Shown here: piece after piece, positions 11,656-19,926 of the stretch | How the letters are laid out: each line of letters starts with the position of its first letter | How positions within the stretch are numbered: the first letter of the stretch is position 1 | Assembly: GCF_000422565.1 (NCBI RefSeq) | Contig: NZ_KE383875.1 | Location: 131,742 to 195,741 of the forward strand | From: Desulfovibrio aminophilus DSM 12254 | Lineage (GTDB): Bacteria > Desulfobacterota > Desulfovibrionia > Desulfovibrionales > Desulfovibrionaceae | Reading direction: 5' to 3' | DNA: 64,000 bases | The notes under the pieces: generated by a model | Database searches by the model: none | Told to the model about the DNA's origin: nothing | The model's input: only the letters and a program-made list of their open reading frames with translations | Made by a program: the position numbers and the translations under genes

Positions 11656-11672
11656 CGTTCTCTATTGAGAGC

Positions 11673-11715
11673 GAAAATCGTTTTCATTGACACTTCCCGA
11701 ACCGAGTCTTATCCA
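11673..11715 (+). promoter_or_regulatory. Candidate copA promoter with upstream palindrome
   Basis: A perfect TTGACA (11687-11692) and a weak TATCCA (11710-11715) are 17 bases apart. The -10 ends six bases before ATG 11722, suggesting a leaderless start. Just upstream, GAAAATCGTTTTC (11673-11685) is a perfect inverted repeat resembling Fur-type boxes of Desulfovibrio; it does not look like a CueR site. Confidence 0.4.
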
Positions 11716-11721
11716 GACACG

Positions 11722-14199
11722 ATGGACACGACGCAAAAACAACACGCCCGCGTCACGGGAATGCATTGCGCGGCCTGCTCGGCCCGCGTGGAGCGGGGGG
11801 TCGCCGCCCTGCCCGGCGTGGCCTCGGCCCAGGTCAACCTGGCCGCCGAGAGCCTGGATGTGAGCTGGGATCCCGCCGCGCTTCGGCCCGAGGACATCAA
11901 GGCCGCCGTGGAGGACATGGGCTACGGGCTGGAATTCGCCCCGTCCGAGAGCCGCCTCGACCTGCGGGTCACGGGTATGCACTGCGCGGCCTGTTCGGCC
12001 CGCGTGGAGCGGACCGTGGCCGCCCTGCCGGGCGTGACCTCGGCCCAGGTCAATCTCGCAGCCGAAACCGCGGGCATCCTCTACGATCCGGCGTCCATCG
12101 GCCCTCGGGCCATCCGCGAGGCCATCCGCGAAGCGGGTTACGGCACGGAGGCCCTGGCCGGAACCTCGGACTTCGAGAAGCACCGCCAGGAAACCCTCGA
12201 ACGGGTGCGCGCCCAGGGCCGGGCCCTGATTCCGGCCTTCGCCCTGGCCCTGCCCGTGTTCCTCCTCTCCATGGGCCACATGATGGGCCTGACGCTGCCC
12301 GCCTTCCTGGCCCCGGACAGCGCGCCCCTGACCTTCGCCCTGGTCCAGGCCGCGCTCACCGCGCCGGTGCTCTGGATCGGCCGCAACTTCTACCGCTTCG
12401 GCATCCCGGCCCTGCTCCGCCGGGCCCCGAACATGGACTCCCTGGTGGCCCTGGGCACCGGGGCGGCCTTTCTCTACAGCCTCTGGAACACCCTGGAGAT
12501 CGCCCTGGGCCGCCACGAGCTGGCCCACGACCTCTATTTCGAGTCCGCGGCCGTGCTCGTCACGCTCATCTCCCTGGGCAAGTACCTGGAGGCCCGCTCC
12601 AAGCTGAAGACCACCGACGCGGTGCGCGCGCTCATGGACCTGGCCCCACGCACGGCCACCCTGCTGCGGGACGGCGCGCAGGTGGAAGTGCCGGTGGACG
12701 AGCTGGAGCCCGGCGACGAACTCGTGGTCAAGCCCGGCGAACGCATCCCCGTGGACGCCCGCATTCTCAAGGGCTCCACGCGCATCGACGAATCCATGCT
12801 CACCGGCGAGCCCCTGCCCGCGGCCCGGGCCGAGGGCGACGCCGTGGTGGGCGGCACCCTGAACACCACCGGCGCGCTCACCCTGCGCGCCGAGCGCGTG
12901 GGCCAGGACACCATGCTGGCCCGCATCGTGCGCCTCGTGCAGGAGGCCCAGGGCTCCAAGGCCCCCATCGCCAACCTGGCCGACCGCGTGTCCTACTATT
13001 TCGTGCCCGCGGTCATGGCCGTGGCCGCCCTGGCCTTCCTCGGCTGGCACCTCTCCGGGGCCGGATTCGATTTCTCCCTGCGCGTCTTCGTGGCCGTCAT
13101 GGTCATCGCCTGCCCCTGCGCCATGGGCCTGGCCGTGCCCACCTCGATCATGGTCGGCACGGGCCGGGGCGCGCAGCTCGGCGTGCTCATCAAGAGCGGC
13201 GGGGCCTTGCAGAAGGCCGGGGAGATCACGGCCGTGGTCTTCGACAAGACCGGCACCCTGACCCACGGCAAGCCCGAACTCACGGACCTGGAAGTCCTGC
13301 CCGAGGCCGGCATTTCCGAGGCCGAGGCCCTGACCCTGGCGGGCTCGGCCGAAAGCCTCTCCGAGCACCCCCTGGCCAAGGCCGTGACCGCCTCGGCCCA
13401 GACGCGCGGCGCGGCCCTCTCCGAGCCGGAGTCCTTCGAGTCGGTCACGGGCCGGGGCGTGCGCGCCCGGGTGATGGGCCGCAGCCTCCTGCTGGGCAAC
13501 CGCGCTCTGCTCACCGAGGCCGGGGTCGCTATCCCGCCGGAGATGGACTCTCTGTCAACGCGCTTTTCCGGGCAGGCCCGCACGGCCCTGCATCTGGCCG
13601 TGGATGGCCGGGCGGCCGCCGTGCTGGCCGTGGCCGACAAACTCAAGGACGAAGCCCCCGAGGTGGTGGCTCGGCTCAAGGCCCTGGGTTTCTCGGTGGT
13701 CATGCTCACCGGCGACGACGAAATCACGGCCCAAGCCGTGGCCCGCGAGGCCGGCATCGAAGAGGTGGTGGCCGGGGTCCTGCCCGACCGCAAGGCCGCC
13801 GAGATCGAGAAGCTGCAACAGCGGGGCCTGGTCACGGCCATGGCCGGAGACGGCATCAACGACGCCCCGGCCCTGGCCCGCGCGGATTTGGGAGTGGCCA
13901 TGGGCTCGGGCATTGACGTCGCCGTGGAATCCGGCGACATTGTGCTCATGACCGGCGATCTGCGCGGCGTGCTCACCGCCCTGGGCCTGAGCCGGGCGAC
14001 CCTGCGCAACATCCGCCAAAACCTGTTTTGGGCCTTCGCCTTCAACACCGTGGGCATCCCGGTGGCGGCCGGAGTCCTGCACGCCTTCGGCGGTCCCACG
14101 CTCTCGCCCATGATCGCGGGCACGGCCATGGCGCTCAGTTCGGTTTTCGTGGTCAGCAACGCCCTGCGGCTGCGGTTTTTCCGCCCCGGGGACCAATAG
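11722..14199 (+). CDS. copA: Copper-exporting P1B-type ATPase CopA
   Basis: An 825-residue inner-membrane ATPase that pumps Cu(I) out of the cytoplasm. It has two N-terminal HMA metal-binding domains (about 5-70 and 75-140), both with [13 protein letters not shown], so alike in DNA and protein that they look like an internal duplication. The membrane metal site is CPC at 464-466, the phosphorylated residue is Asp508 in DKTGT, and [11 protein letters not shown] forms the hinge. ATG 11722 starts at HMA1; no SD precedes it, and a -10-like hexamer ends six bases upstream. The copper chaperone copZ follows after 12 bases. Confidence 0.95.
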
Positions 14200-14539: not shown

Positions 14540-17224
14540 ATGGAAAACTCATCCCCCCAGCGACTCTGGCACCGTCTTGAGGCCAATGAAACCCTCACGG
14601 CATTGGACAGTTCCATCGAGGGCCTGACCCCACAGGAAGCCGAGGCCCGGCTCGGCGCATACGGACCAAACATCCTCGCCGAGCAGGACGGAATCAACTA
14701 TGCCGCCATCCTGCTCGGACAAGTCGCGAATCCCCTCATCTTCATCCTGCTGATCGCCGCCGGAGTGACCGCCGCCATGGGGGAAGTCATCGATTCCGGC
14801 GTGATCATCGCCATCCTGGTCATCAACGGGCTCATCGGATTCTTCCAGGAGATCCGCGCGGAACAAAGCGTGCGGGCGTTGCGGCGCATGGTCAATCCCC
14901 GCGTGCATGTGGTCCGCGGGGGCCGTGAGATGGAGATCGACGGCTCCCTCCTCGTGCCTGGAGATGTAGTGCTCCTTGTTTCCGGGGTGCTCGTCCCGGC
15001 GGATCTTCGCCTGCTGCAGACCGTCGAGCTGCGCGTGGACGAATCCATGCTGACCGGGGAATCGCTCCCGGCGGAAAAGAACCCTGAACGGCTGGAGGAG
15101 GAGAACCTGCCTCCGGGCGATCAGCGGAACATGGCCTTCATGGGCACTATCGTCAGCGGGGGAAGGGCCCGAGGCCTCGTCGTGCGCACGGGAGCGTCGA
15201 CGGTTCTCGGAGGCATCGCGGGGGATATCCGCGGCATCGGCACCGTGCGGGCTCCCATCCAGGAGAAGATCGCGCGCTTCGGCCACCTCATCGGCTATGT
15301 GGTCATGGCGGCCTCGGCACTGCTGTTCATGCTGGGGATCGGCGTGGGCGAATCCCTGCGCGACATGTTCATGACCGCCGTCGCCGCGGCCGTGGCGGCC
15401 GTGCCCGAAGGCCTGCCCATCGTCGTCACCGTCGCCCTGGCCGTGGGCGTCGGACGCATGGCCCGGGCCAAGGCCATCGTGCGCAAGCTCCCCGCCGTCG
15501 AAACCCTCGGCAGCGCCACGGTGATCTGCACGGACAAGACCGGCACGCTCACTATGAACGAAATGACCGTCCGGAAAATATTCGACGGAAGCCGCCACTG
15601 GGTCGCGGAGGGCACCGGATACGATCCGGCGGGCGCGCTTCAATTTGAAAGCGGGCCGGACTCCGACCGGGAGGATCTCCTGCGCCTCCTGCGCGTCGGC
15701 CTGCTGTGCAACGAATCATCCCTGATCATGGAGGACGATCGCTACACGATCCGGGGCGACCCGACCGAAGGGGCGCTCATCGTCTCCGCGCTCAAGGCAG
15801 GCCTCTCCCTGGACGGCGAGCAGACGGCTCACCCCCAACTGGCGCTGCTGCCCTTCGAGTCCGAACGAGGATACATGGCGACCCTGCATCTGCAGGGGAA
15901 CCGGAAGACGCTTTTCGTCAAAGGCGGGCTCGACCGACTCATGGACCTTTGTCCGGAATGCTCACGGGCGGGCTCGCTCCGCGGGACGCTGACGCGCATC
16001 GCCGGGGAGTTCGCCCGGGAAGGATTGCGCGTTTTGGCCTTCGCCGTGAAGGACATGCCCCCGGAGACCCTGACGGTGACGGAGAAGGATGTCACCGGCG
16101 GCATGACCTTTCTCGGGCTCCAGGGCATGATCGATCCGCCCCGCCCCGAAGCCCTGGAGGCTGTTTCCGGCTGCCTGCGTTCGGGCATACGCGTCCTGAT
16201 GATCACCGGCGACCACGCGGACACGGCCCTGGCCGTGGCCCGGCAGCTGGGCATCGCCCGCGAGGGGGACCAGGCGCTCACGGGCCGGGAGCTGGCGGTC
16301 ATGGCCGACGACGAACTGATCCTCCGCCTGAACGATACGGCGGTATTCGCCCGCATCGCTCCGGAACACAAGCTCCGGATAGTGGAACGACTCAAGGCCA
16401 GGGGCGAGATCGTCGCCGTGACCGGAGACGGAGTCAACGACGCCCCGGCCCTCAAGGCCGCCCACATCGGCATCGCCATGGGACGGACGGGAACGGACGT
16501 GGCCAAGGAGGCCGCCGACATGATCCTGGCCGACGACAACTTCGCCTCCATCTACCGCGCCGTGGGCGAGGGACGGGTAGTCTTCGACAATCTGCGCAAG
16601 GCCGTCTTCTTCCTGATACCGACGGGCATCGCGGCCATATGGTCGATCCTGGTCACGGTGCTGCTCGGCATCCCGATGCCCTACCTCCCGGCCCAGATTC
16701 TCTGGATCAACCTGGTGACGAACGGCCTGCAGGATGTTTCCCTGGCCTTCGAGCCCGGCGACCCCGACGCGCTGAACCGCCCCCCGAGACCTCCCAGGGA
16801 GCCGGTGATGAGTTCCCTGCTCTGGCAACGCACCGTGCTGGTGAGCATCGTCATCTCGGTGGGCGTGATCCTCGTCTATCTCGGCGCTCGGGCCGCCGGA
16901 GCGGAACTGGACAGGGCCAGGACCCTGGCCATGACCACCATGGTCTTCTTCCAGTTCTTCCAGGCGTGGAACTCGCGTTCCGAGACCCGTTCGGTATTCT
17001 CCATTCCGGCCTTCTCCAATCCACTGCTCTTCGGCAGCATGGTTCTCGCGACCCTGGCCCAGATCGCCGCGGTATACGCCCCGCCGCTGCAATGGGTCTT
17101 CCGGACCACTCCTCTCTCGCTGCCGGACTGGATGCTTGTCCTGGCAGTCAGCGCCAGCGTGATATTCGTGGTGGAAATCGACAAGGCGCTTCGGCGCAGA
17201 TACGGCATCATGAAAAGCAGTTAG
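14540..17224 (+). CDS. Calcium-type (P2) cation-transporting P-type ATPase
   Basis: An 894-residue membrane ATPase. It has an N-terminal cation-ATPase domain, the actuator TGES ([14 protein letters not shown]), a membrane PEGLP motif (P289) with VVTVALAVGVGRMA, phosphorylated Asp332 in CTDKTGTLT, TGDGVNDAPALK and a ten-helix layout. Helix 6 reads NLVTNGLQD where SERCA has NLVTDGLP, so the ion could be Ca2+, Na+ or another cation. No SD precedes the ATG; a promoter-like pair ends seven bases upstream. It follows the copA terminator, so it is its own unit. Confidence 0.88.
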   Translation: MENSSPQRLWHRLEANETLTALDSSIEGLTPQEAEARLGAYGPNILAEQDGINYAAILLGQVANPLIFILLIAAGVTAAMGEVIDSGVIIAILVINGLIGFFQEIRAEQSVRALRRMVNPRVHVVRGGREMEIDGSLLVPGDVVLLVSGVLVPADLRLLQTVELRVDESMLTGESLPAEKNPERLEEENLPPGDQRNMAFMGTIVSGGRARGLVVRTGASTVLGGIAGDIRGIGTVRAPIQEKIARFGHLIGYVVMAASALLFMLGIGVGESLRDMFMTAVAAAVAAVPEGLPIVVTVALAVGVGRMARAKAIVRKLPAVETLGSATVICTDKTGTLTMNEMTVRKIFDGSRHWVAEGTGYDPAGALQFESGPDSDREDLLRLLRVGLLCNESSLIMEDDRYTIRGDPTEGALIVSALKAGLSLDGEQTAHPQLALLPFESERGYMATLHLQGNRKTLFVKGGLDRLMDLCPECSRAGSLRGTLTRIAGEFAREGLRVLAFAVKDMPPETLTVTEKDVTGGMTFLGLQGMIDPPRPEALEAVSGCLRSGIRVLMITGDHADTALAVARQLGIAREGDQALTGRELAVMADDELILRLNDTAVFARIAPEHKLRIVERLKARGEIVAVTGDGVNDAPALKAAHIGIAMGRTGTDVAKEAADMILADDNFASIYRAVGEGRVVFDNLRKAVFFLIPTGIAAIWSILVTVLLGIPMPYLPAQILWINLVTNGLQDVSLAFEPGDPDALNRPPRPPREPVMSSLLWQRTVLVSIVISVGVILVYLGARAAGAELDRARTLAMTTMVFFQFFQAWNSRSETRSVFSIPAFSNPLLFGSMVLATLAQIAAVYAPPLQWVFRTTPLSLPDWMLVLAVSASVIFVVEIDKALRRRYGIMKSS

Positions 17225-17481
17225 GGGGAGGTGGTTCGGATGCGCTCTGCGCGACCCGGCAACCGCGACCGGCGGCGCCAGAGCCGTATCGCCCGTTCAA
17301 GACGCAGACGGCCATACGGCAGAGAGCGAGGCCTCGGTTCCGGCGTTTTTCCAACCGAAATCCGGTCCGCCAGGTCGCCTCACACCCCTACCGATCCCCG
17401 CAAAAAAACTATAAGGTGGCTGCGGATTGCATCGCCGTCCGCCCTTGCAGCCCGGAAACCATGCACAAAAAAGGAACCCCG

Positions 17482-18531
17482 ATGCCCAGGTACGATCTGG
17501 TCCGCAGCGTCCGCGCGGCGGGTTGAGCCGCCAAGATTCCTCCCGGGGATCTGGAGGAAGCGCTCGCCGGGCTGTCCAAGAGCCCTGACCCACGCATCCT
17601 CGCCGGAGCAGGAGGAGAGCATGAGGACGCCTGCGTCCTTTCGTTCCCGCCGGGCAAGGCCCTGGTCCAGACCGTGGACTTCCTCACGCCCCTGGTGAAC
17701 GATCCCTACGAATTCGGCCGCATCGCGGCGGCCAACTCCCTCTCCGACGTCTACGCCATGGGCGGCGAACCATGGTCGGCCATGAACATCGTCTGCTTCC
17801 CCCAGGGCAAGATGCCCTCCTGGGTGCTCCAGGACATCCTGCGCGGCGGCCGCGACGCGGTGCTGGAGGCCGGGGCGGCCCCGGCCGGAGGCCACAGCGT
17901 GACCGACGACGAACTGAAATTCGGTCTGGCCGTGTCCGGCGTCGTGGATCCCGGGCGTGTGGCGGTCAAGGGCGGCCTGCGGCCCGGCGACCTGCTCGTC
18001 CTGACAAAGCCCCTGGGCATCGGCGTGCTGGCCACGGCGGTCAAGGCCGACTGGCAGGGCTGCGCCGAATTCGAACGGACCATCGTGCGCTGGTGCTCCC
18101 GGCTGAACGCGGCCGGGGCCCGGGTCATCCGAGAGCTGGGGCTCGTCGCGGCCACGGACGTCACCGGCTTCGGCCTGGGCGGGCACGCCCTGGAGATGGC
18201 CCGCTCCTCGCGCCTAGCCGTGGAGTTGCGCGTGGCCGACGCCCCCTTCCTGGACCACGTGCGGGAACTGGCGGGCATGGGCCTCATGCCCGCGGGCAGC
18301 CTCTGCAACCGCAGGCACTACGCCCCGTTCACCGAGGTCGCGTCGGACCTGGACTCCCTGTCGGCGGACCTGATCTTCGACGCCCAGACCTCGGGCGGCC
18401 TGCTCCTGGGCGTGCCCGAGGACCGGCTGGAACGGGCGCGGACCATGCTTCTGGATGCCGGGGATCTGGCCGTGGTCGTCGGCCGCGCCGTGCCCGCCGA
18501 GGCAGGTCGTCCGTCCCTGCGCCTCGTCTGA
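17482..18531 (+). CDS. selD: Selenide, water dikinase SelD, a selenoprotein (UGA-encoded Sec at residue 15)
   Basis: A 349-residue enzyme making selenophosphate from selenide and ATP. The reading frame from ATG 17482 meets TGA at 17524-17526 and stays open after it to 18531. The TGA falls in RAAG-U-AAKIPPGDL, exactly where SelD enzymes carry the catalytic Cys/Sec before the ATP-binding Lys. Downstream SelD motifs are present: DFLTPLVNDPYEFGRIAAANSLSDVYAMGG, GGHSVTDDELKFGL and TDVTGFGLGGHALEMA. Total length fits the family (about 347). ATG 17482 is eight bases after AAGGA; ATG 17461 is an in-frame alternative. The 257-base gap upstream (17225-17481) shows no gene, only a possible TATAAG -10 at 17410. 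Conventional gene calling would truncate this to start near 17674. Confidence 0.93.
17527..17554 (+). promoter_or_regulatory. Candidate bacterial SECIS hairpin in selD
   Basis: Beginning four bases after the UGA, CC-A-AGATTCC (17531-17540) can pair with GGGGATCTGG (17545-17554), with one bulged A and a loop of about five bases. A hairpin this close to the UGA is what bacterial SelB needs to insert selenocysteine. Confidence 0.6.
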
Positions 18532-18544
18532 GTTCCGAAAAGGC

Positions 18545-18573
18545 TTGCCGTAAACCCCGCTTCGACGCATTAT
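18545..18573 (+). promoter_or_regulatory. Candidate leaderless promoter of nhaA
   Basis: TTGCCG (18545-18550), 17 bases, CATTAT (18568-18573), ending six bases before ATG 18580. No SD is visible. Confidence 0.45.
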
Positions 18574-18579
18574 TCCAGC

Positions 18580-19926
18580 ATGCGTCCCCTGTTCCGCGAG
18601 CCCATCGACACCATCCTCTCCCCATTCCAGAGGTTCTTCCACACCTCCGCGTCCAGCGGCCTGCTCCTGGTGACGGCCACGATCGCGGCGCTCGTCTGGG
18701 CCAACTCGCCCTGGGCCGGGGACTACCACGCGCTCTGGGCCATGCCTCTGAGCGTCGGCCTGGGCGGCGCACTGCTGGCCAAGCCGCTGCTGCTTTGGAT
18801 CAACGACGGGATCATGGCCATGTTCTTCTTCGTGGTGGGCCTGGAAATCAAGCGCGAGTTCCTGGTGGGTGAACTGGCCTCGCCCCGGCAGGCCCTCCTG
18901 CCCATCGCCTCGGCCGTGGGCGGCATGCTCGTCCCGGCGGCGCTCTTCTGGGTCTGCAACCAGGGCTCCCCGCACGCGGACGGATGGGGCGTACCCATGG
19001 CCACGGACATCGCCTTCGCCCTCGGCGTGCTCTCCCTGCTCGGTCGCCGCGTCCCGGCGACGCTCAAGATATTCCTCACGGCCGTGGCCATCGTGGACGA
19101 CATCGGCGCGGTGCTGGTCATAGCCCTGTTCTACACCGGAACCATCCACTGGACCTTCCTTGGCCTGGGCCTGCTCCTGCTCGGCTGCATGGCCGGAGCC
19201 AACGCCCTGGGGGTGCGCGCCAGCGGGATATACCTCGTCCTGGGTTGCGCCCTCTGGCTGGCCTTCCTCAAGTCCGGGGTGCACGCCACCGTGGCCGGAG
19301 TTCTGGCGGCCATGACCATCCCGGCGCGTCCCCGTCTGGGCGGCGGAGCCTACGTCGGCAGGGTACGCGATCTGATTGAAGATTTCCGCCAAGCCAACCG
19401 CAACGGCCAGGGCATGCTGGCCAATCCTCGGCGGCACAGAATCCTTCTGGCCCTGCGCCGGGCCGGACGCGACGCCGAGACGCCCCTGCAACGTCTGGAG
19501 GCCCGCCTGCATCCCTGGATGGCTCTGGCGGTCATGCCCCTCTTCGCCCTGGCCAACGCGGGCGTGGACCTCTCCGGCGACATGGGCCGCACCCTGGCCC
19601 AGCCCCTGTCCCTGGGCATCCTGGCCGGACTGCTCCTGGGCAAGCCAGTGGGCGTGGCGCTCACGGCCCTGGTTCTGACGCGCACGGGTCTCGCGGCGGC
19701 CCCCGCCGGAACGACGGCCCGCCATCTGCTCGGCGCGGGCTGTCTGGCGGGCATCGGCTTCACCATGTCCATCTTCATCGCCGGGTTGGCCTTCAACGAC
19801 CCCGGGGCCGAAACCCTGGCCAAAACCGCCGTGCTGGCCGCGTCCCTGGCCGCCGGGCTTCTGGGTTGGCTCGTGCTGCGGGGCCTGCCGGAGGGTCCGG
19901 CCGAACCGACTGAAAACACGCACTGA
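18580..19926 (+). CDS. nhaA: Na+/H+ antiporter NhaA
   Basis: A 448-residue inner-membrane antiporter exchanging Na+ for H+ for pH and salt balance. Family residues are Asp143 in ATDIAFALG and the pair Asp173-Asp174 in IVDDIGAV; FFFVVGLEIKREF and GFTMSIFIAGLAF are also typical. About twelve hydrophobic helices are seen, with a somewhat longer cytoplasmic loop near residues 255-300. The start lacks an SD but has a promoter-like pair just upstream. An MscS-type channel gene follows after about 18 bases. Confidence 0.95.
   Translation: MRPLFREPIDTILSPFQRFFHTSASSGLLLVTATIAALVWANSPWAGDYHALWAMPLSVGLGGALLAKPLLLWINDGIMAMFFFVVGLEIKREFLVGELASPRQALLPIASAVGGMLVPAALFWVCNQGSPHADGWGVPMATDIAFALGVLSLLGRRVPATLKIFLTAVAIVDDIGAVLVIALFYTGTIHWTFLGLGLLLLGCMAGANALGVRASGIYLVLGCALWLAFLKSGVHATVAGVLAAMTIPARPRLGGGAYVGRVRDLIEDFRQANRNGQGMLANPRRHRILLALRRAGRDAETPLQRLEARLHPWMALAVMPLFALANAGVDLSGDMGRTLAQPLSLGILAGLLLGKPVGVALTALVLTRTGLAAAPAGTTARHLLGAGCLAGIGFTMSIFIAGLAFNDPGAETLAKTAVLAASLAAGLLGWLVLRGLPEGPAEPTENTH

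Follow-up and report, generated by a model that had tools for sequence, protein, structure and literature searches.

The selD gene, encoding selenide, water dikinase (SelD, selenophosphate synthetase), lies on the forward strand of a 64,000-nt stretch of the Desulfovibrio aminophilus DSM 12254 genome (referred to here as the window), and an in-frame UGA near its 5' end is almost certainly read as selenocysteine (Sec). The frame 17461-18531 contains a single internal TGA at 17524-17526 and is then open up to the TGA at 18529-18531, as the initial annotation of this DNA had described. The product passes the curated cut-off of NCBIfam TIGR00476 in a profile search (323.3 bits, cut-off 125) and thus belongs to the SelD family; both the AIRS and the AIRS_C domain were detected, and solved SelD chains match it with E-values of 3e-60 (best) and 4.9e-57. 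In alignments with these chains and with relatives the UGA falls on the catalytic Cys/Sec position, as had been proposed, which in the solved chains is the Cys within GCGCK / GCAAK, and the N-terminal G-(C/U)-x-x-K motif that characterizes SelD reads GUAAK here. The gene therefore has an in-frame UGA flanked on either side by conserved coding sequence, and its homologs carry Cys or Sec at that position, the combination by which a selenoprotein is recognized.

The gene most likely spans 17482-18531 (349 codons, UGA at codon 15). The start was assigned to ATG 17482 because AAGGAA (17471-17476, forward strand), a likely ribosome-binding site, precedes it, because both congeners have a Met and an upstream purine-rich stretch at the same position, and because the residues of the seven codons from 17461 up to 17482 are not conserved in these two congeners. 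The UGA had previously been called codon 15 of a frame starting at 17461; the codon number stands when counted from 17482, and the start does not, since 17461 would make it codon 22. Downstream of the UGA the same frame holds an ORF from GTG 17674 (285 aa), and the earlier figure of about 64 residues lost in an automatic annotation fits the difference between 349 and 285. By eye, selD is flanked by two P-type ATPase-like genes (11665-14199 and 14540-17224) and an NhaA-like antiporter gene (18580-19926). When the whole window was screened for Sec codons by codon-position GC, a coarse measure, seven TGAs were returned, 17524 included; the other six were rejected as each has a possible start codon 2-19 codons downstream.

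The initial annotation had predicted that selA, selB, and tRNA-Sec would be found elsewhere in the genome, and had named the absence of selB and selC as evidence against its reading. All three components by which a selenoprotein gene is judged are present in this assembly (3.42 Mb, 25 contigs, 99.98% complete): selA at C1:279508-280878 (603.3 bits), selB at C1:282330-284222 (two matched pieces in one frame, 365.9 bits together), and tRNA-Sec (selC) at C1:370286-370374 (79.5 bits versus a gathering score of 47), called tRNA-SeC with anticodon tca by ARAGORN. By eye, selD lies on a different contig from these three genes. Three FdhA proteins scored above cut-off, two with an in-frame TGA at the U-H-S motif and the third with C-H-S; because two FdhA carry an in-frame TGA, the genome very likely decodes Sec beyond selD as well. 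Two formate dehydrogenase alpha genes (L080 and L081) are located on the same strand about 1 kb apart at G000:C10:11492-18534, one with Sec and the other with Cys at the active site, possibly a selenium-dependent pair of isoforms.

A SelD protein search gave a match in 55 of 59 related genomes, the D. aminophilus genome included. After exclusion of two loci in which the gene is cut at a contig end (L071 and L072), the site was readable in 53 genomes, of which 52 have TGA and one, G010, has TGC; both congeners have TGA at the same codon. SelB scored over its cut-off in 53/59 genomes and tRNA-Sec in 54/59. Among the 52 genomes with a UGA-containing selD, 50 have SelB (none above cut-off in G020 and G024) and 50 have tRNA-Sec (none above cut-off in G024 and G049), the assemblies of G020, G024, and G049 being 67-84% complete. 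Two further genomes (G012 and G050) have SelB and tRNA-Sec over the cut-offs and no SelD over its own; as the two assemblies are split into 330 and 490 contigs, a gap is likely. In a further set of 149 genomes from the class, which shares members with the first 59, SelD was found in 139, with one TGA in the matched stretch in 134 and none in five; these counts refer to a TGA anywhere in the matched stretch, the codon itself being read only in the fetched loci. One of the five (G019) has a match that begins after the site and TGA is present there, and the other four (G077, G101, G114, and G142) have TGC or TGT at the Sec site. Outside the order, UGA was found in 14 of 16 readable SelD genes; the 16 were obtained from 21 loci (L086-L106) by dropping L099, the same record as L020 of G001, and L087, L088, L090, and L097, in which the motif was unreadable. 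Most of the sampled genomes of related sulfate reducers keep UGA in selD, and two lineages appear to have changed to Cys.

A putative SECIS-like hairpin follows the UGA at 17537-17559 (forward strand). The stem found in the window pairs 17537-17543 with 17553-17559, beginning eleven bases past the UGA; when 47 nt are folded, the pairing probability is 0.90-0.93 for its first five pairs. In the register shared by the family, 17540-17546 pairs with 17550-17556 around the loop 17547-17549, with one C-U mismatch (17544/17552) in the window. A gap-free alignment of 42 bases from each of 52 UGA genes (51 distinct rows) yielded a seven-pair stem, columns 20-26 with 30-36, in which 95.8% of the cells of the 51 distinct rows are paired. 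For four of the seven pairs, at least one sequence has both bases changed in a compensatory way; six pairs were picked independently by RNAalifold, and slides of one to three columns either way were worse; the observed values were reached by 0/500 shuffles, a control in which shared descent and codon constraint remain. All 52 UGA genes have G at the first position of the three-base loop, and a figure legend in PMC1794560 describes the apical-loop G as conserved in bacterial SECIS elements. Three extra pairs beneath the stem are weakly kept, one of them pairing in only 12 of the 51 rows, and some outer pairs in the 47-nt fold start directly after the UGA. The initial annotation had placed a hairpin four bases after the UGA; the compensatory changes argue for the hairpin, and its position was misjudged, the stem starting about ten bases further on, at 17537 or 17540.

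Folding of the window hairpin as a single sequence revealed no excess stability over shuffles (z -0.11, -0.08, and -0.67; -1.21), and the preferred fold depends on length, 39 nt giving another hairpin and 47 nt the conserved one. An Rfam search of 17000-19000 returned nothing up to E 1, and the hairpin was therefore judged by comparison; by comparison only, it has what a bacterial SECIS would require, i.e., a stem a short distance past the UGA with G in its loop. Among the UGA-containing selD genes outside the order, 13 of 14 reach six or seven of the seven pairs at offset 0 or -3; unlike in the Desulfovibrio relatives, the stems of several from other phyla pair best three bases nearer the UGA. 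The two outside-order Cys selD genes reach at most five pairs at any offset tried.

Five Cys-SelD genomes were found in all, four of them without SelB over the cut-off. In a tree of 57 SelDs, the bootstrap of which had not settled, the five Cys proteins fall in two places, and well-supported branches would force at least two changes between Sec and Cys; a change from Sec to Cys is more parsimonious than the reverse because each Cys group adjoins UGA genes inside the UGA family. G010 (95% complete) has neither SelB nor tRNA-Sec over the cut-offs, and the hairpin after its TGC keeps 7/7 pairs in the family register and folds so well that only 2/200 shuffles were at least as good (z -2.58), possibly a remnant of a SECIS. 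The near copies G114 and G142 keep 6/7 pairs, and on the same tree, with its unsettled bootstrap, they would represent the second Sec-to-Cys change; G077 and G101 keep 2/7. G114 and G142 (L139 and L140) are genomes of about 1.4 Mb, with TGT in selD and no SelB over the cut-off. In G077 (L137 and L142), SelB is over the cut-off and yet SelD has Cys; the ORF following its selD (L142:51-773) is YedF-like by eye only.

The surroundings of the G010 selD (L078:4655-5737) resemble the orphan SelD and selenium-dependent molybdenum hydroxylase loci described in PMC2276186. Its neighbours (L078:1183-10980) over the cut-offs are a selenium-dependent xanthine dehydrogenase, YedF, ModA, ModC, and diaminopropionate ammonia-lyase. 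In the five genomes searched for YqeB (TIGR03309), only G010 has it over the cut-off (L062), about 16 kb from selD. The selenouridine synthase model TIGR03167 found nothing in G010; its sole match in the five genomes was one of 25 positions in the D. aminophilus genome, far below the cut-off.

Three other explanations of the TGA were weighed against Sec insertion. A sequencing or assembly error, with TGC or TGT as the true codon and a Cys-SelD as the product, would agree with the five genomes in the family that have Cys at this site; such an error, also named beforehand as a possible flaw of the Sec reading, is practically excluded because the TGA recurs in both congeners and in all but one of the readable genomes, and the presence of selA, selB, and tRNA-Sec speaks against it as well. 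Equally negligible is a true stop, with either a functional product from GTG 17674 or a pseudogene. The 285-aa ORF is what such a reading could draw on, but the codons flanking the UGA match SelD and are conserved over the family, the remainder of the frame is open, and the truncated form would miss the active-site motif.

Near-cognate readthrough of stop codons is known in general, and the UGA could be read mostly with Cys, Ser, or Trp in the absence of specific Sec insertion; Cys does occur at this site in other SelDs, and readthrough may matter under selenium shortage. As the main route it is nevertheless very improbable, since the UGA tracks SelB (50/52 UGA genomes have it and 4/5 Cys genomes do not) and the hairpin has been kept by compensatory change. 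We therefore regard the gene, with high confidence, as an ordinary bacterial selD with an active-site Sec at UGA codon 15, and the possible annotation error as settled for the selD of this genome.

The Sec-SelD of D. aminophilus is of a kind already known and reported for Desulfovibrio. In Table 3 of PMC1794560 (2006), SelD is one of the selenoproteins given for both Desulfovibrio vulgaris and D. desulfuricans, and the present gene is therefore an ortholog of a known selenoprotein: the same enzyme with the same recoding in related organisms, differing in no essential way as far as the table shows. The nearest named relative record is Desulfovibrio sp. UBA4079 (82% identical). The same paper counts 38 Sec-SelDs in the SelD family and three conversions from Sec to Cys; in the reference set of PMC4561486, 19% of the SelD genes encode Sec, invariably at one position, with which the Sec at the N-terminal motif here agrees, and PMC12013277 describes SelD as a selenoprotein in many organisms. 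The Cys-SelD structures 3u0o and 2yye are alike in fold family and motif position, but they have Cys where Sec is predicted here. Remnant SECIS-like structures after Cys codons are also illustrated in PMC1794560, the legend of which names FdhA and a HesB-like protein, whereas the G010 case lies in selD, in a genome with neither SelB nor tRNA-Sec over the cut-offs. The mildly interesting part of the comparison is the two apparently separate Sec-to-Cys conversions, one of which left the hairpin in place in G010, where selD adjoins genes of selenium-dependent molybdenum hydroxylases.

Sec insertion, SelB binding, and the enzyme activity are inferred from what is established about the selABCD system. 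Ribosomes that start at 17482 would meet the UGA at codon 15. Loaded with Sec-tRNA-Sec, SelB would bind the hairpin just downstream, and Sec would be inserted and the stop avoided. The full 349-residue enzyme would convert selenide and ATP to selenophosphate, which SelA would use to make Sec-tRNA-Sec, so that SelD would contribute to the synthesis of its own active-site amino acid. SelD also seems to need its own product, because only one SelD was found in the genome by protein search at E 0.001 or better. A more speculative proposal, which we consider rather doubtful, is that selenium use is self-sustaining and bistable: cells with Sec-SelD would keep making Sec-SelD and so carry a memory of selenium supply, for which the Sec and Cys formate dehydrogenases on C10 could serve as a readout. 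If so, cells that lose SelD in selenium starvation would restart only by the rare insertion of another residue, e.g. Cys, at the UGA.

The known picture of Sec insertion is unchanged by the selD of D. aminophilus, an organism that has what the use of Sec requires. Its relatives among the sulfate reducers offer a natural comparison between lineages that keep the UGA and lineages with Cys, four of the five genomes of the latter having no SelB over the cut-off, and G077, with SelB and a Cys-SelD, makes the order of events in such a change open to study.
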